DNA of 46,172 nt, taken from positions 1-46,172 of the forward strand of contig JAQTNW010000025.1 of assembly GCA_028713655.1 (NCBI GenBank). Direction: 5' to 3'. Below the pieces are notes generated by a model. That model saw only the letters and a program-made list of their open reading frames with translations, searched no databases and was not told the origin of the DNA. Of the stretch, positions 3,501-10,374 are shown one piece after another. Source of the stretch: Candidatus Methylacidiphilales bacterium (GTDB lineage Bacteria > Verrucomicrobiota > Verrucomicrobiia > Methylacidiphilales > JAAUTS01). Position 1 is the stretch's first letter, and each line of letters begins with the position of its first letter. The translations under genes and the position numbers were made by a program.

Positions 3501-4355
3501 CTAGGAAACGAAGCGAAATCTCCAAACCAATGCCAGAAAACCAAGGCCAAGCCCAAGCAGTCCAAGTGATGACGGCTCGGGTACGCCGGTGATGCTGTCG
3601 ATCTGCGACGCATAGGCGTTGAGCTGCACCATGTAGGAATTCTGGTTTGTATCCACCGCTTCATTAATGCCCGACAACATCCATGACGAAGATGCGGAAT
3701 TATAAATGAAATCCCCTCCGCCCGAATCGCCGGTAACCAACACGTAATCATTTGTAACACTGGCAAGTCCGGCCGTGATCGTGCCGTACTCGGTCGCAAA
3801 ATCAGTACTGGAATAGGTCGAACTGCCGACTGTGACCTCAATCGGCAGGTTTACGTCTGTGACCGTGTTCAAACCCCAGGTTTCACCCTGCCCGCCGCCA
3901 TATCCGATCATGGCCACCATGCTCCCCGATTGTGTTGCTGAAAAGGCAGTGGGGGCGGAGCCCGCGATTGTCAGGGAAGGCAGACTTGGCGCTGAGGAGA
4001 GTTCGAACAACGTCAGGTCCGCAATCGTACTGTCCGGGTTTACAATTCCGTGCGTGGAACCCGCCAGCACCGAATAGGATGTTCCACCCAGCACAAAAGT
4101 TCCAGAGCCCACATGCCCCGCCGTGAGAACCCAATTATTCCCCAAATAAACGCCGCTGGCCCCATTAACGGTTCCCACATAATCCCAGCCCGTCACTCCG
4201 CCCGAACCCCAACCTGTGTTCCAATTCGCAATGTCGGTGCTCGTGGGAGGGCTTATATTAAAGGAAATCGTGCCGCTCACGTCTTTCTCAATAGCCCTAG
4301 CTTGGGCCAGGGAGAGAACCATGAACAAAACGAAATAAAACGACAAAGGTTTCAT
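3501..4355 (-). CDS. Secreted trypsin-like serine protease with PEP-CTERM sorting tail
   Basis: The 284-residue protein starts with a signal peptide (MKPLSFYFVLFMVLSLAQARA). The trypsin-fold triad is visible: His81 in WVLTAGHVG, Asp113 in IADLTLFEL, and Ser211 in VTGDSGGGDF. The tail VPEPSSLGLLGLGLGFLAL plus a basic RFRF end is a PEP-CTERM signal, which exosortase cleaves and which targets proteins to the cell surface or exopolysaccharide matrix. The ATG at 4355 is chosen because the signal peptide begins there; an upstream extension to 4493 has no signal features. The exosortase is not in this window. A secreted substrate is unknown. The region between signal and catalytic core is Gly/Ser/Asn-rich, as in surface proteins. 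Confidence 0.88.
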   Translation of the reverse strand: MKPLSFYFVLFMVLSLAQARAIEKDVSGTISFNISPPTSTDIANWNTGWGSGGVTGWDYVGTVNGASGVYLGNNWVLTAGHVGSGTFVLGGTSYSVLAGSTHGIVNPDSTIADLTLFELSSAPSLPSLTIAGSAPTAFSATQSGSMVAMIGYGGGQGETWGLNTVTDVNLPIEVTVGSSTYSSTDFATEYGTITAGLASVTNDYVLVTGDSGGGDFIYNSASSSWMLSGINEAVDTNQNSYMVQLNAYASQIDSITGVPEPSSLGLLGLGLGFLALVWRFRFVS

Positions 4356-5052: not shown

Positions 5053-5802
5053 CTAATTTGTTTGCTTCCGAATCAAGGCCGAAAATTCCCTGAATTCAGC
5101 TTCCGCCAGATCCGACACGGCCAGATAATTCATCCCGGACCTGGACCACTCTTCGATTTGATAGCCCCGCAACGAACGAAACGCGGCGGGCACATTGCCG
5201 CCCGGCCAGACAAAAAGATTGATGAAATGTTTGCGGCGCTGATACACCAGCGCAGCCACCGATTGGTGATCCAACACGTCCTGCCGCCCGCCCAGCAGCG
5301 GAAAACCGGACTCCGCCAGATCCACGACGATGGGCGAAAAATCCAGGCGCCCCGCGAACCAGGGCTTGACCGTATGCTGGTCGGTGGATGCGACGTCCAT
5401 CAAATGGCCTGCCTGCAGCGATCTAATGTGATTGGAAACCGCTTCCTCGGCCAGTTTCCCACTCCTATTACTGCCGCCAACAAAAAATGCCGATGCGGAT
5501 GCCACCACAAGCATCAAAAACGCAACGGCCCAGGGCCGGATCAAAGACGGGCCCTTCCACCACGGAACTTTATTTCCGGCCTCCTCGCGCAACAACGCCT
5601 GGATGCGGGTCTTGAGCGCGCCCGGCGCGCTGTGCCGCGGCAATTTTTCCTGAAACGACTGCGCCAGCGCGCGTTGCGACTCAACAATCCCGGCACAGGC
5701 GGGGCAGGCGCGGAGATGTTCCTCGACTTCCATGCTGCGCAGCACATCCAGCTCACCGTCCACAAAGGCGTCCAGTACGCGCCTGACTTGATCACATTCC
5801 AC
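5053..5802 (-). CDS. Anti-sigma factor with N-terminal zinc finger and one membrane span
   Basis: A 249-residue partner of the ECF sigma factor encoded just upstream. Residues 1-40 form a zf-HC2 anti-sigma zinc finger: Cys3, then HLRACPAC with His29, Cys33 and Cys36. A single transmembrane helix lies around residues 90-108 (AVAFLMLVVASASAFFVGG), and the rest is a probable periplasmic sensor domain ending IRKQTN. The start overlaps the sigma gene by 11 bases, so the two are translationally coupled. By family precedent it holds the sigma factor inactive at the membrane until a signal arrives, either through the zinc site (redox) or the outer domain. The signal is unknown. In another frame right after the stop the sequence reads like a protein C-terminus, which may be chance. 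Confidence 0.9.
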   Translation of the reverse strand: MECDQVRRVLDAFVDGELDVLRSMEVEEHLRACPACAGIVESQRALAQSFQEKLPRHSAPGALKTRIQALLREEAGNKVPWWKGPSLIRPWAVAFLMLVVASASAFFVGGSNRSGKLAEEAVSNHIRSLQAGHLMDVASTDQHTVKPWFAGRLDFSPIVVDLAESGFPLLGGRQDVLDHQSVAALVYQRRKHFINLFVWPGGNVPAAFRSLRGYQIEEWSRSGMNYLAVSDLAEAEFREFSALIRKQTN

Positions 5803-6322
5803 GGGAAGCCTCCTTTTTCGAGAGTTCCATTAGTTCCAAGTGCAGCTTTCTTCGCGCTCGGGCGAGCCGGGACATCACGGTCCCGATGGGAATCCCAACG
5901 GTGGCCGAGATGTCCTTGTAGGCCATGCCTTCGAGTTCGTGCAGGACGATCACTTCGCGAAACTCCAGCGGCAGTTGTTCCAAGCCGTGCTCGAGCCATT
6001 CCCTGCGGATTTGTTGCAGTTCAAGATGTCCATTGTTAAGAGGCTCATCAACCACTCCGTGAAACGCCTCATCAAACGGCTCACCAAGCTCGGATTTTTG
6101 GTGTTTTTTAAGAAGGCTGAGGCAGACATTGCGCACAATCGTGAGCAGCCATGCTTTCCCATTGTCGCCGCGAAAGGCTCCGAACGCGCGATAGGCGCGC
6201 AAGGTCGCTTCCTGTACGGAATCTTCCGCATCCTGTTCGTTGCGCAACATCCAGCGCGCCAGATTATACGCGGCGTCCATATGCGGCAAAATAAGGTGTT
6301 CAAATTCAGACAGTTGATCCAC
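5792..6322 (-). CDS. ECF-family RNA polymerase sigma factor
   Basis: A 176-residue sigma-70-like factor. Region 2 is seen in the stretch DAAYNLARWMLRNEQDAEDS and the following Q-E-A-T-L-R-A-Y core-binding part; region 4 ends with the helix-turn-helix MAYKDISATVGIPIGTVMSR. I choose GTG at 6322 because GGAGG lies 4 bases upstream, and because a probable autoregulatory promoter lies at 6355-6383. The longer frame opening at a TTG (6385) would begin upstream of that promoter. The gene overlaps its membrane anti-sigma factor by 11 bases. The divergent Tat-phosphoesterase operon carries a near-copy of the same promoter, so it is the likely regulon member. Confidence 0.92.
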   Translation of the reverse strand: MDQLSEFEHLILPHMDAAYNLARWMLRNEQDAEDSVQEATLRAYRAFGAFRGDNGKAWLLTIVRNVCLSLLKKHQKSELGEPFDEAFHGVVDEPLNNGHLELQQIRREWLEHGLEQLPLEFREVIVLHELEGMAYKDISATVGIPIGTVMSRLARARRKLHLELMELSKKEASRGM

Positions 6323-6354
6323 GACGCCTCCACGAGTCGTCCTTTCTTTAAACC

Positions 6355-6383
6355 TAAACTCCCCAGGCTCCAAGTTTATTCCC
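6355..6383 (-). promoter_or_regulatory. Probable ECF promoter of the sigma/anti-sigma operon
   Basis: On the minus strand GGGAATAAAC (-35 type, 6374-6383) is followed after 11 bases by GGAGTTTA (-10 type, 6355-6362). This matches the divergent promoter at 6414-6442 at nearly every position outside a few spacer bases. The GGAAT -35 class is typical of ECF sigma factors. It sits about 30 bases before the GTG start of the sigma gene. Confidence 0.7.
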
Positions 6384-6413
6384 AAACCGCGCGAAATATT
6401 TATTTCCGTCCCC

Positions 6414-6442
6414 GGGAATAAACCAGGGTCCTCCGGAGTTTA
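6414..6442 (+). promoter_or_regulatory. Probable ECF promoter of the Tat-phosphoesterase operon
   Basis: GGGAATAAAC at 6414-6423 and GGAGTTTA at 6435-6442, separated by 11 bases, mirror the sequence facing the sigma gene. The two -35 elements form a perfect inverted repeat, TTTATTCCC (6375-6383) and GGGAATAAA (6414-6422). The expected start of transcription leaves a leader of about 55 bases with AAAGGA before the ATG at 6504. Confidence 0.7.
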
Positions 6443-6503
6443 AACCTATGAAAGCCAACAAAGGCATGAAATTTCAATCAACCCCCAACAAAGGATAAAC
6501 CAG

Positions 6504-7457
6504 ATGAACGACACTATCACGGAAGATCACAACCATGACGGCATCGACCGGCGCGGTTTTTTAAAATGCATGGCATGGGCCGGCACGGGCGTCGTTTGCG
6601 CCATGAAAGGCGGCATACTCAGCTCGACCGTTCTGGGCGAAACCCCGGACGGCGCTGCGGCGGCGGGCGCGGACTTCACGTTTGTCCAGATCAGCGACAG
6701 CCATATCGGATTCAACAAACCGGCCAACAAAGACGTGGCCGCCACCTGCCGCGAGGCAATCCGGCGCATTAATGCGTTGCCGCAGGCCCCGGATTTTATT
6801 TTGCATACGGGTGACCTGAGCCATTTGTCCGAGGCGGCCGAGTTCGATACCCTGGATCAAATTTTGCAGGAATGCAAAACCAAGCAGGTGTTTTATGTTC
6901 CGGGCGAGCATGACATCCTGAGCGATAATGGGGCGCAATACTTGCAACGCTTCGGGAAGGGAACCCACGGAACCGGCTGGTACAGCTTCGAGCAGAAAGG
7001 CGTTCATTTTGTCGGTCTGGTGAATGTCGCCACCATCCGCGAAGGCGGTCTGGGTGTTTTGGGCCAGGAGCAACTGGACTGGTTGAAAAACGACCTCGCC
7101 CCCTTGTCCACCAGCACTCCCATCGTTGTCTTTGCCCACATACCGTTGTGGACGGTTTATCCGCAATGGGGCTGGGGCACGGATGACGGCGCTCAAGCCT
7201 TGTCGTATTTGAAACGGTTTGGATCTGTCACCGTACTCAACGGCCACATCCATCAAACCCTGCAGAAAGTCGAAGGAAACATCACGTTTCACACCGCCTG
7301 CTCCACAGCCTTCCCGCAACCCGCGCCCGGCACCGCTCCCAAACCCGGCCCGATGACGGTGCCCGGAGAAAAATTACGCGGCACCCTCGGCATGACAAAA
7401 GTGTCGTATGTCGAAAAAAATCATGCGCTGGCCATCGTCGATTCCAATCTGGCCTGA
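6504..7457 (+). CDS. Tat-exported metallophosphoesterase (calcineurin-like)
   Basis: A 317-residue protein with a twin-arginine signal (DRRGFLK at 15-21 followed by a hydrophobic stretch), so it is folded before export to the periplasm. The calcineurin-type metal motifs appear in order: SDSH (Asp65, His67), TGDLSH (Asp104), GEHD (residues 134-137), FAHIPLW (His212) and NGHIH (His248, His250). The usual Asn of GNHD is Glu here, a change in a metal-bridging position. The substrate is unknown; such enzymes cleave phosphomonoesters or diesters, often nucleotides. It heads an operon with a DUF2231 membrane protein (6-base gap) and a cytochrome c, under a probable ECF promoter, hinting at a redox or cell-envelope stress role. 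Confidence 0.88.
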   Translation: MNDTITEDHNHDGIDRRGFLKCMAWAGTGVVCAMKGGILSSTVLGETPDGAAAAGADFTFVQISDSHIGFNKPANKDVAATCREAIRRINALPQAPDFILHTGDLSHLSEAAEFDTLDQILQECKTKQVFYVPGEHDILSDNGAQYLQRFGKGTHGTGWYSFEQKGVHFVGLVNVATIREGGLGVLGQEQLDWLKNDLAPLSTSTPIVVFAHIPLWTVYPQWGWGTDDGAQALSYLKRFGSVTVLNGHIHQTLQKVEGNITFHTACSTAFPQPAPGTAPKPGPMTVPGEKLRGTLGMTKVSYVEKNHALAIVDSNLA

Positions 7458-7463
7458 CATCCC

Positions 7464-7892
7464 ATGACAACAGACCCCAACCTCTGGGCGAAACTGCACG
7501 GCGCCAGCACGCACTTTCCCGTCGCGCTGGCGCTGTCATCCGTGTTGTTTGACAGCCTGGCAATGGCGATCTCAAACCCCGAACGCCGGATGGGATTGCG
7601 CGCGGCCGGATTTTACGCGCTGATCCTCGGTGTCCTGGGCGCTTTTCCGGCTGTCATTTCCGGATTGGTCATGACCCGCTGGGATTCCCTGGGAAGCGGC
7701 CCCCTGCTTTGGCACCACTGCTTTGTCTGGCCTGCCTTTGGACTGATGGTTGGGCTGGCCGTGTGGCGGGCGCTGGCGCGCAACCAGGCTTCTTCCCGCG
7801 TATTTGCCATTTATCTCGCCTTGATGATACTCACGGCGGGATTGGTGGCGGCTGCAGGCTATTGGGGCGGCGAACTTTTATTGAACGGATGA
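7464..7892 (+). CDS. DUF2231-like integral membrane protein
   Basis: A 142-residue protein with four predicted transmembrane helices (around residues 18-37, 47-70, 84-102 and 113-138). Conserved polar residues sit in the membrane: LHGASTHFPVALAL near the N-terminus with His12 and His17, and LLWHHCFVWPAF with His84 and His85. This fits the DUF2231 family, whose histidines have been suggested to bind haem or metal. It lies 6 bases after the phosphoesterase gene and overlaps the cytochrome c gene by 4 bases, which supports a joint electron-transfer function. No biochemical role is established. Confidence 0.8.
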   Translation: MTTDPNLWAKLHGASTHFPVALALSSVLFDSLAMAISNPERRMGLRAAGFYALILGVLGAFPAVISGLVMTRWDSLGSGPLLWHHCFVWPAFGLMVGLAVWRALARNQASSRVFAIYLALMILTAGLVAAAGYWGGELLLNG

Positions 7893-8293
7893 CCGTCATG
7901 TCCGCTTTCGTGGAAAAAAATGCCGCGGGGCTGGGCGTCTTGTCGGGGGTGCTGGCCCTCGGCGCCGCTCTGGGTTTGGCGGAAATCATGAAAAGTCAGA
8001 CGCCAATCGGCCCGTTACCCGCTTCATCGGGGCCGGCTGCGACATTGACTGCCGCAGACAAGCAGGCCCTGGCAGCGCTCGGACGCGGCTACTTCATCCA
8101 AAGCTGCGCGCATTGCCATGGCGACGATGCCCGCGGCGATGAGGGGCCGAATTTGCACGGCTTGAAAATAAGCAACGCCCGGATCGAGCATAGGATCCGG
8201 AACGGGAGCAAGGGCAGGATGCCCTCCTTCGCCAAAAAATACGGGCCTGCCGGGATCGCGGCACTGCGCGAGTATTTGCGAACCTTGAATTAA
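7889..8293 (+). CDS. Membrane-anchored class I cytochrome c
   Basis: A 134-residue protein with an uncleaved N-terminal hydrophobic segment (residues about 12-34) that likely anchors it to the periplasmic face. The haem motif is CAHCH (Cys73, Cys76, His77) and the distal ligand is probably Met111 in GRMPSFAKKYG, the usual cytochrome c pattern. The ATG overlaps the previous stop (ATGA), showing coupling; the ORF open upstream to 7709 is a shadow of the DUF2231 gene. It probably passes electrons to or from the DUF2231 membrane protein. Confidence 0.9.
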   Translation: MTVMSAFVEKNAAGLGVLSGVLALGAALGLAEIMKSQTPIGPLPASSGPAATLTAADKQALAALGRGYFIQSCAHCHGDDARGDEGPNLHGLKISNARIEHRIRNGSKGRMPSFAKKYGPAGIAALREYLRTLN

Positions 8294-8429: not shown

Positions 8430-8822
8430 ATGAACCTCGTCCGGGTGTACCAATGTTTTTGCGATCAAACCCGCCTGCGCATCCTGCACCTGCTCCTGCG
8501 CTCGCCCCTTTGCGTCTGCCATTTCCAAAGCGTCCTGCGCGAACCGCAGGTGAAAATCTCCAAGCACCTGGCCTACCTCCGCGAGCACGGACTGGTCGAA
8601 GCCCGGCGCCATGAAAACTGGATGATCTACCAGTTGCCCTCCCATCGAACCGTCGAACTGGACGCCAACCTGAAATGCCTGCAGGACTGCGTTCAAACCG
8701 AACCCTCCTTCAAAAGGGACAAGGCCAGGCTGGACAAACTGATGGATTCCAAGGACGTAACCACCCTCTTGGCCGAAGGCTGCTGTCCCAGCGCCAGCCC
8801 GCTCAGAAAGAAGAGCAAATGA
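8430..8822 (+). CDS. arsR: ArsR-family arsenic-responsive repressor
   Basis: A 130-residue winged-helix repressor that leaves its operator when As(III) or Sb(III) binds. The DNA-binding helices include REPQVKISKHLAYLREHGLV and the wing EARRHENWMIYQLP. Metalloid ligands are probably Cys28 and Cys30 in PLCVCHF, at the classic ELCVCDL position, and perhaps the CC pair at 118-119 near the C-terminus. It is first in an arsR-arsC-acr3 operon and overlaps arsC. It likely controls the operon from the promoter immediately upstream. Confidence 0.93.
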   Translation: MNLVRVYQCFCDQTRLRILHLLLRSPLCVCHFQSVLREPQVKISKHLAYLREHGLVEARRHENWMIYQLPSHRTVELDANLKCLQDCVQTEPSFKRDKARLDKLMDSKDVTTLLAEGCCPSASPLRKKSK

Positions 8823-9319
8823 TGAAGACTCACAAACCATTCAAAATCCTGTTCCTTTGCACGGGCAACACGGCCCGCAGCATTCTGGCCGAATACCTGA
8901 TGAAACGCATCGGCCGCGACCGCTTCGAATCCTACAGCGCGGGCGCCAGCCCCAAAGGCCATGTGCATCCCATGTCCTTACGGGTGTTGAAGGAAATTTA
9001 TAAAATCGACACGACGGGAGCCCGCAGCAAGTCGTGGGACGAATTCAAAGAGGCCGGCATCGTCTTTGATTTTGTCATTACGGTTTGCGACAACGCCCGC
9101 GAATCCTGCCCGATCTGGCCCGGCCAGCCGATAGTGGCGCATTGGGGTTCCCCGGACCCGGCGGCATTCGAGGGCAGCGAAAAGGAACAATATGAACTTT
9201 TCCGCAAGGTCGCCCTGCAAATCCAACGCCGCATCGAGCTGTTTACCAGCCTGCCCCTTGAAAAGCTGGACCGGTTGCGACTGGCCGAAATGACGCGCGA
9301 GATCGGGGAAAAAGAATGA
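8819..9319 (+). CDS. arsC: Arsenate reductase, thioredoxin-coupled low-molecular-weight phosphatase type
   Basis: A 166-residue enzyme reducing arsenate to arsenite for export. The CX5R phosphate loop is CTGNTAR (Cys14-Arg20) and the two resolving cysteines are Cys90 and Cys97 in VCDNARESCPIWPG, the triple-cysteine arrangement of the thioredoxin-dependent ArsC class. HWGSPDPA supplies the general acid Asp. Two starts are close together: ATG at 8819 overlapping the arsR stop, or ATG at 8822. I keep the first, as ATGA overlaps are used throughout this operon. Confidence 0.95.
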   Translation: MMKTHKPFKILFLCTGNTARSILAEYLMKRIGRDRFESYSAGASPKGHVHPMSLRVLKEIYKIDTTGARSKSWDEFKEAGIVFDFVITVCDNARESCPIWPGQPIVAHWGSPDPAAFEGSEKEQYELFRKVALQIQRRIELFTSLPLEKLDRLRLAEMTREIGEKE

Positions 9320-10374
9320 GCGAGAAAAAGCGGCTGCCATTTTTTGAGCGGTATTTGTCGCTCTGGGTATTCCTCTGCATGATCGCCGGGGTGGTCCTGG
9401 GCGCGCTGTTGCCGGAGGCAACGACCACTCTCAGCAATCTGGAATTTGTGCGGGGCTCGCACGTCAACGCGCCCATCGCCGTGCTGATCTGGCTGATGAT
9501 CTATCCGATGATGTTGAAAGTCGATTTCGGCGCGCTCGGCGGCGTGGCCCGCAAACCCAAGGGCCTGATGGTGACCCTCATTGTCAACTGGCTGGTGAAA
9601 CCGTTCAGCATGGCCTTTCTCGCCTGGCTGTTCATGCAGCACCTGTTCAAAGGCTGGATCGACGCCGAAACAGGCAAAAGCTACACGGCTGGGTTGATTA
9701 TATTAGCAGCAGCGCCTTGCACGGCCATGGTGTTCGTCTGGTCTTATCTCACCGATGGCGATCCCGTCTATACCCTGGTGCAGGTGGCGGTAAACGACTT
9801 GATCATGCTCGTGGCCTTTGCGCCCATCGTCATGTTTCTGTGCGGCGTCGCAAATGTAATCGTGCCATCGAAGGTGCTCATCACCTCGGTGGTGGTGTTT
9901 ATTGTCATCCCTTTGGCAGCCGGTTGGTTGACTCGCGTGTTGCTGATCCGGACGCACGGGCCCGAATGGTTTGAGAAACAATTCCTGCCCAAATTCCATC
10001 CCCTGGCGATCACGGCCCTTCTGCTGACCCTGGTTTTGATCTTTGCGTTCCAGTCTGAAAATCTGAGAACGAAGTGGCTGGCCGTTGCGCTGATTGCCGT
10101 CCCGATCATCATCCAGGTTTATTTCAACAGCAGCCTGGCCTATCTGGCCATGCGCTGGTTCAAGGTGGAACACAACGTGGCGGCACCGGGCGCATTGATA
10201 GGCGCCAGTAACTTTTTCGAACTGGCGGTGGCGGTGGCCATCACGCTTTTCGGCCCCAGCTCGGGCGCCGCGCTGGCTACGGTCGTGGGCGTGCTGGTGG
10301 AAGTGCCGGTGATGCTCTCCGTCTGCCATGTCTGCAACCGGACAAGGCATTGGTTTCCGGCAGCACGGGTTTAG
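9316..10374 (+). CDS. acr3: Arsenite efflux transporter of the ACR3 family
   Basis: A 352-residue inner-membrane protein with ten predicted helices that exports As(OH)3 produced by ArsC. Diagnostic features are the cysteine in the fourth helix (AAAPCTAMVFVWS, Cys135) and the glutamate in VLVEVPVML near residue 330, both conserved and needed for transport in ACR3. NDLIMLVAFAP and NFFELAVAVAI are also family signatures. The start overlaps the arsC stop by 4 bases. Often called arsB in annotations, but the sequence is ACR3, not the unrelated ArsB. Confidence 0.95.
   Translation: MSEKKRLPFFERYLSLWVFLCMIAGVVLGALLPEATTTLSNLEFVRGSHVNAPIAVLIWLMIYPMMLKVDFGALGGVARKPKGLMVTLIVNWLVKPFSMAFLAWLFMQHLFKGWIDAETGKSYTAGLIILAAAPCTAMVFVWSYLTDGDPVYTLVQVAVNDLIMLVAFAPIVMFLCGVANVIVPSKVLITSVVVFIVIPLAAGWLTRVLLIRTHGPEWFEKQFLPKFHPLAITALLLTLVLIFAFQSENLRTKWLAVALIAVPIIIQVYFNSSLAYLAMRWFKVEHNVAAPGALIGASNFFELAVAVAITLFGPSSGAALATVVGVLVEVPVMLSVCHVCNRTRHWFPAARV

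Follow-up and report, generated by a model that had tools for sequence, protein, structure and literature searches.

The closest described counterparts of the locus reported here belong to the ECF26 sigma factors, with a cross-species promoter consensus of -35 GGAATA and -10 GT (PMC6180224). In S. meliloti, the rpoE4 and sorT promoters were mapped by 5'RACE (PMC3511301, PMC6180224), and RpoE4 responds to sulfite-generating compounds and drives a sulfite oxidase, a cytochrome c and a pseudoazurin (PMC3511301). The two S. meliloti promoter sequences read GGAATA-N17-GTCT (rpoE4) and GGAATT-N16-GTCT (sorT). We analyzed the window, a 46,172-nucleotide stretch of DNA from a Candidatus Methylacidiphilales bacterium, in which the intergenic region 6323-6503 separates an ECF sigma gene from a divergent operon for a phosphoesterase-like protein, a DUF2231 protein and a cytochrome c (6504-8293). 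The initial annotation had read two mirror-image ECF promoters into this region and proposed that the sigma factor controls both itself and the divergent operon. In the literature accessible to us (most subscription papers lie outside it), we found no paper on this module or on the enzyme family that its GEHD motif defines.

The gene calls of the initial annotation are borne out by Pfam. The sigma gene (5792-6322, minus strand) encodes a protein of 176 amino acids matching Sigma70_r2 and Sigma70_r4_2, which has regions 2 and 4 only, scores above the cut-off of TIGR02937, as is characteristic of ECF (group 4) factors, and sits in a clade of phosphoesterase-linked sigmas. Its proposed GTG start at 6322 fits the surrounding sequence, with a Shine-Dalgarno-like GGAGG 4 nt upstream (6327-6331, minus strand), and the in-frame TTG at 6385 that would give a longer open frame would precede the predicted transcription start. 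A gene absent from the initial annotation (5053-5802, minus strand) overlaps the end of the sigma gene by 11 bases and, from its Pfam zf-HC2 match and its conserved motifs, encodes a membrane anti-sigma factor with an N-terminal zinc finger (HxxxCxxC), a transmembrane segment and a periplasmic domain that carries a conserved DQHTVKPWF.G.LDF motif. This protein is likely a membrane ZAS-type anti-sigma and a putative sensor; its scores against named anti-sigma models were all below the cut-offs. Such a membrane anti-sigma in the same operon, a further group 4 trait, is linked to the sigma gene in nearly all sigma-bearing relatives. Elsewhere on the minus strand, 3501-4355 encodes a trypsin-like serine protease with a PEP-CTERM sorting signal.

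The motif that had been described before both divergent genes is there exactly and at the positions given for it. On the minus strand, 6355-6383 reads GGGAATAAACTTGGAGCCTGGGGAGTTTA, and on the plus strand, 6414-6442 reads GGGAATAAACCAGGGTCCTCCGGAGTTTA; both are exact matches to GGGAATAAAC-N11-GGAGTTTA, identical in both blocks and in spacing, where window shuffles give a chance expectation of 0.00. A scan of the full 3.29 Mb genome, which the initial annotation had suggested, returned two exact matches, both of them back to back in 6323-6503, and allowing up to three mismatches added three sites. The intergenic region yielded no promoter of the sigma-70-like type, and over the rest of the scanned stretch promoter-like sites are about as frequent as expected by chance. 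The perfect inverted repeat that had been noted is present but longer than the 9 bases claimed, its arms GTTTATTCCC and GGGAATAAAC having 10 bases each with 30 bases between them. The conserved core is narrower than the full motif, namely GGGAATA-N17-GT, and the -10 element is therefore placed at GTTTA, 6438-6442 on the plus strand and 6359-6355 on the minus strand. The predicted promoter of the phosphoesterase-DUF2231-cytochrome operon (6414-6442, plus strand) thus combines a -35 GGGAATAAAC at 6414-6423 with this -10 and a predicted transcription start at ∼6449, and that of the sigma/anti-sigma operon (6355-6383, minus strand) has its -35 GGGAATAAAC at 6383-6374 and a predicted start at ∼6347.

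Promoter conservation, gene content and linkage can be read directly from the loci of relatives. From 47 loci with a divergent sigma gene, we obtained 39 non-redundant intergenic regions from Verrucomicrobiota, Acidobacteriota, Armatimonadota and Burkholderiales. GGAATA-N16/17-GT points toward the enzyme gene in 35 of the 39, toward the sigma gene in 37 and is found on both strands in 34, compared with 0 in the reversed control and an average of 0.36 single hits in total in shuffles. The gap between GGAATA and GT is always 16 or 17, being 17 in 62 of 68 sites, and in 21 of 34 loci the two sites share the base after GT, against 12.3 expected (P = 0.0015, with kinship ignored). In contrast, the two -35 elements lie anywhere from 3 to 306 bp apart, so that the inverted repeat as such appears incidental. 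Because the gap is fixed, the base after GT co-varies and the arm distance is free, we read the pair as two independent promoters of one specificity with no operator palindrome. The perfect 10-base arms are what an operator for a dimeric regulator would look like, but with this spread in arm spacing and fixed gap, and with the element in many loci on one strand only and oriented toward the gene, such an operator is very improbable, and we rejected it on the arm spacing.

The initial annotation had also pointed to spacer bases shared by the two sites (GG and CCT). These are present, and the spacers agree at 5 of 11 positions, but the agreement is not significant (P = 0.11) and was dropped as evidence. 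It would have favored a coincidental likeness or an origin of the pair by recent local duplication of a single promoter; we regard this explanation as having a negligible probability and as refuted by the comparative data, since the pair recurs in distant taxa with different spacers. The comparative evidence instead indicates that 6355-6383 and 6414-6442 are ECF promoters, and phylogenetic footprinting strongly supports the proposed control by the ECF factor of its own expression and of the divergent operon.

Within its own genome, the predicted regulon seems confined to these two operons. Pattern matching with the relatives-based pattern GGGAATAAA-N15-GTNT added a single strict site (C47), which precedes the gene of a PEP-CTERM protein by ∼185 bp and compares with a chance expectation of ∼0.4, and the closest of the sites with up to three mismatches (C58) falls within an open frame. 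A wider regulon was rejected on these grounds.

Loci in which enzyme and sigma gene are separated serve as natural controls. In Bacteroidota, where the enzyme has no adjacent sigma gene, the element occurs in 0 of the 16 loci of the set, and a search of five of these genomes gave best ECF matches of no more than 26-35% identity. The Bacteroidota loci (L084, L098, L119 and others) have YceI and a two-haem cytochrome beside the GEHD enzyme, without sigma or promoter, and many have a conserved pair of further genes downstream. Several Acidobacteriota carry the enzyme with the element and no local sigma gene, and here an orthologous sigma is encoded elsewhere in the genome; these detached sigmas have the same type of anti-sigma and usually a GGAATAAA..GT promoter of their own. 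The element was absent on the sense strand of 11 more distant ECFs that were checked. On a Janthinobacterium plasmid (L133, 2230-4549), a sigma of the same clade is divergent from a cytochrome c-cupredoxin pair, with promoter-like elements at both and no phosphoesterase at the locus. At another locus (L047 of G066, 5225-5918), both GGGAATA promoters are kept although the divergent sigma is only 25.6% identical to that of the window, so this promoter type appears to be read by more than one sigma clade; a different kind of ECF may have taken over the same promoters. Two detached sigmas face divergent promoter-like elements before possible further targets, a TatA gene with an NADH-dehydrogenase-like gene in L148 and DoxX in L154.

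The divergent genes form an apparent operon on the plus strand. The first (6504-7457) encodes a Tat-type (DRRGFLK) protein of 317 amino acids with the calcineurin-like metallophosphoesterase fold, scoring above the PF00149 cut-off; the DUF2231 gene (7464-7892), for a predicted membrane protein, starts 6 nt after it, and the cytochrome c gene (7889-8293; Pfam Cytochrome_CBB3, with an N-terminal hydrophobic segment and one CXXCH) overlaps it start to stop. An arsenic-resistance-like operon with an ArsR-family regulator, an ArsC-like low-molecular-weight phosphatase and an SBF/ACR3-like transporter (8430-10374, plus strand) follows directly and is no regular neighbour in relatives.

The changed GNHD motif of the enzyme had been described as a feature of this locus. 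The change is there, with GEHD replacing the motif whose Asn is a metal ligand, but it is not local: all of the close and mid-distance relatives that we compared, to identities as low as 35%, have Glu-135 of VPGEHD and keep the six other of the seven metal-ligand positions, while among the distant homologues in related genomes GNHD is nearly universal. GEHD is, on this comparison, a family-defining trait, accompanied by conserved WGWGT and STAFPQPAPG segments. Nor is the module peculiar to this genome. A scan of bacterial genomes gave at least 564 coding relatives, of which the best 80 were read, and the loci read span seven phyla. These best 80 are biased toward GEHD because one of the two scan patterns contained it; the relatives search and the plasmid search, which are free of this bias, agree on GEHD. 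Homologues with 70-72% identity are patchy across related genomes, and enzymes with 35-63% identity lie on plasmids of Gemmatirosa, Caballeronia, Burkholderia, Streptomyces, Mycobacteroides, Cupriavidus and Methylocystis.

A constant companion of the enzyme is an electron carrier. A co-directional gene for a CXXCH-motif protein or a cupredoxin (the latter detected by tblastn) lies within 1.5 kb at 90 of 92 GEHD loci, compared with 1 of 22 distant-homologue controls. The carrier is a cytochrome c in many Verrucomicrobiota, a cupredoxin in Acidobacteriota, Burkholderiales and Actinomycetota, and the two-haem cytochrome with YceI in Bacteroidota; carriers of unrelated folds thus recur next to the enzyme in at least four phyla. 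Because one carrier is repeatedly replaced by another, a functional need for an electron carrier is suggested, and from this association and the repeated replacement we therefore propose a redox role for the GEHD enzyme, which we infer from its genomic partners only. The initial suggestion of a redox or envelope stress module gains strength from the same association.

What the enzyme does with such a partner can be read in more than one way. It is quite possible, if somewhat short of an even chance, that under the same regulation it is an ordinary secreted phosphoesterase, such as a GpdQ/Rv0805-like phosphodiesterase or a lipid headgroup hydrolase, with the cytochrome and the DUF2231 protein serving respiration under the same stress and not interacting with it. 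The best Foldseek hits of the enzyme model (mean pLDDT 68.6, a moderate confidence) are GpdQ and Rv0805, sequence comparison also places it nearest these phosphodiesterases, and six of its seven metal-ligand positions are unchanged; the family-wide fixation of GEHD and the recurrence of unrelated carriers argue against this reading. A bolder proposal, which we consider rather unlikely and put forward tentatively, is that the GEHD family is a redox enzyme on the metallophosphoesterase fold, switched on by a cognate ECF sigma in several phyla. Here, replacing Asn with Glu would convert the two-metal site of a hydrolase into a redox-active center richer in carboxylates, for example a di-iron one, with a dedicated cytochrome c or cupredoxin as its partner in electron exchange. 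Flavodiiron proteins have taken a comparable step on the metallo-β-lactamase fold.

Taken as a whole, the locus probably encodes an autoregulated ECF/ZAS pair that controls a Tat-exported GEHD enzyme together with a periplasmic electron carrier. At rest, the co-transcribed membrane ZAS-type anti-sigma (5053-5802) would hold the sigma factor (5792-6322), and an envelope signal, probably sensed by the periplasmic domain of the anti-sigma, would free it. The freed sigma would then read the back-to-back GGGAATA-N17-GT promoters of its own operon and of 6504-8293, the former giving positive feedback plus more anti-sigma and the latter the exported enzyme, the DUF2231 membrane protein and a cytochrome c that is either anchored in the membrane or periplasmic. 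These three most likely would cooperate in a redox or detoxification reaction in the periplasm, with the cytochrome as the electron carrier. In this scheme the regulation is well supported by the comparative sequence data; sigma binding, the role of the anti-sigma and the existence of a signal are proposed by analogy with ECF biology, and the redox function, the nature of the signal and the substrate are presumptive.

The promoters are of a known type, and the novelty lies more in the conserved module and in the GEHD enzyme family. The module defines an ECF regulon that recurs in groups as far apart as Verrucomicrobiota, Acidobacteriota and Burkholderiales, whose promoter is predicted and whose list of targets is short, and it points to a widespread, apparently undescribed cell-envelope redox response. 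The enzyme family also appears to be undescribed, being annotated just as metallophosphoesterase, and has a periplasmic electron carrier as its constant partner. Redox activity of the enzyme would mean a new chemistry for a hydrolase fold; hydrolase activity would leave the connection of phosphoester turnover with electron transfer in the periplasm to be explained.

Compared with the S. meliloti ECF26 systems (RpoE1/RpoE4, EcfR), the window shares the GGAATA/GT promoter with a gap of 16 or 17, a predicted autoregulation and an adjacent membrane anti-sigma gene, and the periplasmic enzyme, cytochrome c and cupredoxin targets of sorT-sorU-azu2 resemble those of the GEHD loci. In contrast, the window sigma falls in a separate clade, splitting from RpoE3, RpoE4 and RpoE6 (97/89) in a tree with few references, several long branches and RpoE1 left out. 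Filing it under ECF26 by sequence is unsupported by the trees; a formal ECF classification could place it differently because the reference set is small and the branches are long. The anti-sigma also differs from the EcfR kind in its ZAS zinc motif and its own conserved periplasmic motif: the partners of RpoE4 and RpoE6 have neither significant full-length similarity to it nor the KPWF motif, and its similarity to the RpoE3 partner is weak (24%). Moreover, the target is a metallophosphoesterase-fold protein and not a sulfite oxidase, and the layout is divergent where that of S. meliloti is serial. The system thus seems to work like ECF26 without being filed as ECF26. In S. meliloti itself, another ECF sigma/anti-sigma pair has a gene for a GNHD-type metallophosphoesterase immediately upstream of it (L178, 1880-4322).

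The likeness raises the question of a sulfite or thiosulfate response like that of RpoE4, in which the sigma factor would sense reactive sulfur and the enzyme would act on a sulfur compound, as does SoxB on the same fold, passing electrons to the cytochrome c or cupredoxin. Beyond the promoter architecture and the kinds of partner, the window cytochrome c matches SorU weakly, SoxB is among the weak fold hits of the enzyme model and a molybdopterin oxidoreductase lies near the enzyme gene in Mycobacteroides. We nevertheless consider it improbable, given that sigma and anti-sigma lie outside the ECF26 references and that sulfur genes do not recur as neighbours in the loci read.

Two further groups of known systems resemble parts of the proposed ECF/ZAS module. 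With ECF/ZAS pairs (RsrA, ChrR, RseA-like), it has in common a sigma and a zinc-finger anti-sigma in one operon with a predicted self-promoter, but its targets and its promoter are different. With the class III phosphodiesterases GpdQ and Rv0805, its enzyme shares the calcineurin-like fold and all but one metal-ligand position, whereas the GEHD family has Glu for the Asn of GNHD, Tat export, the conserved WGWGT and STAFPQPAPG segments and the constant company of electron carriers.
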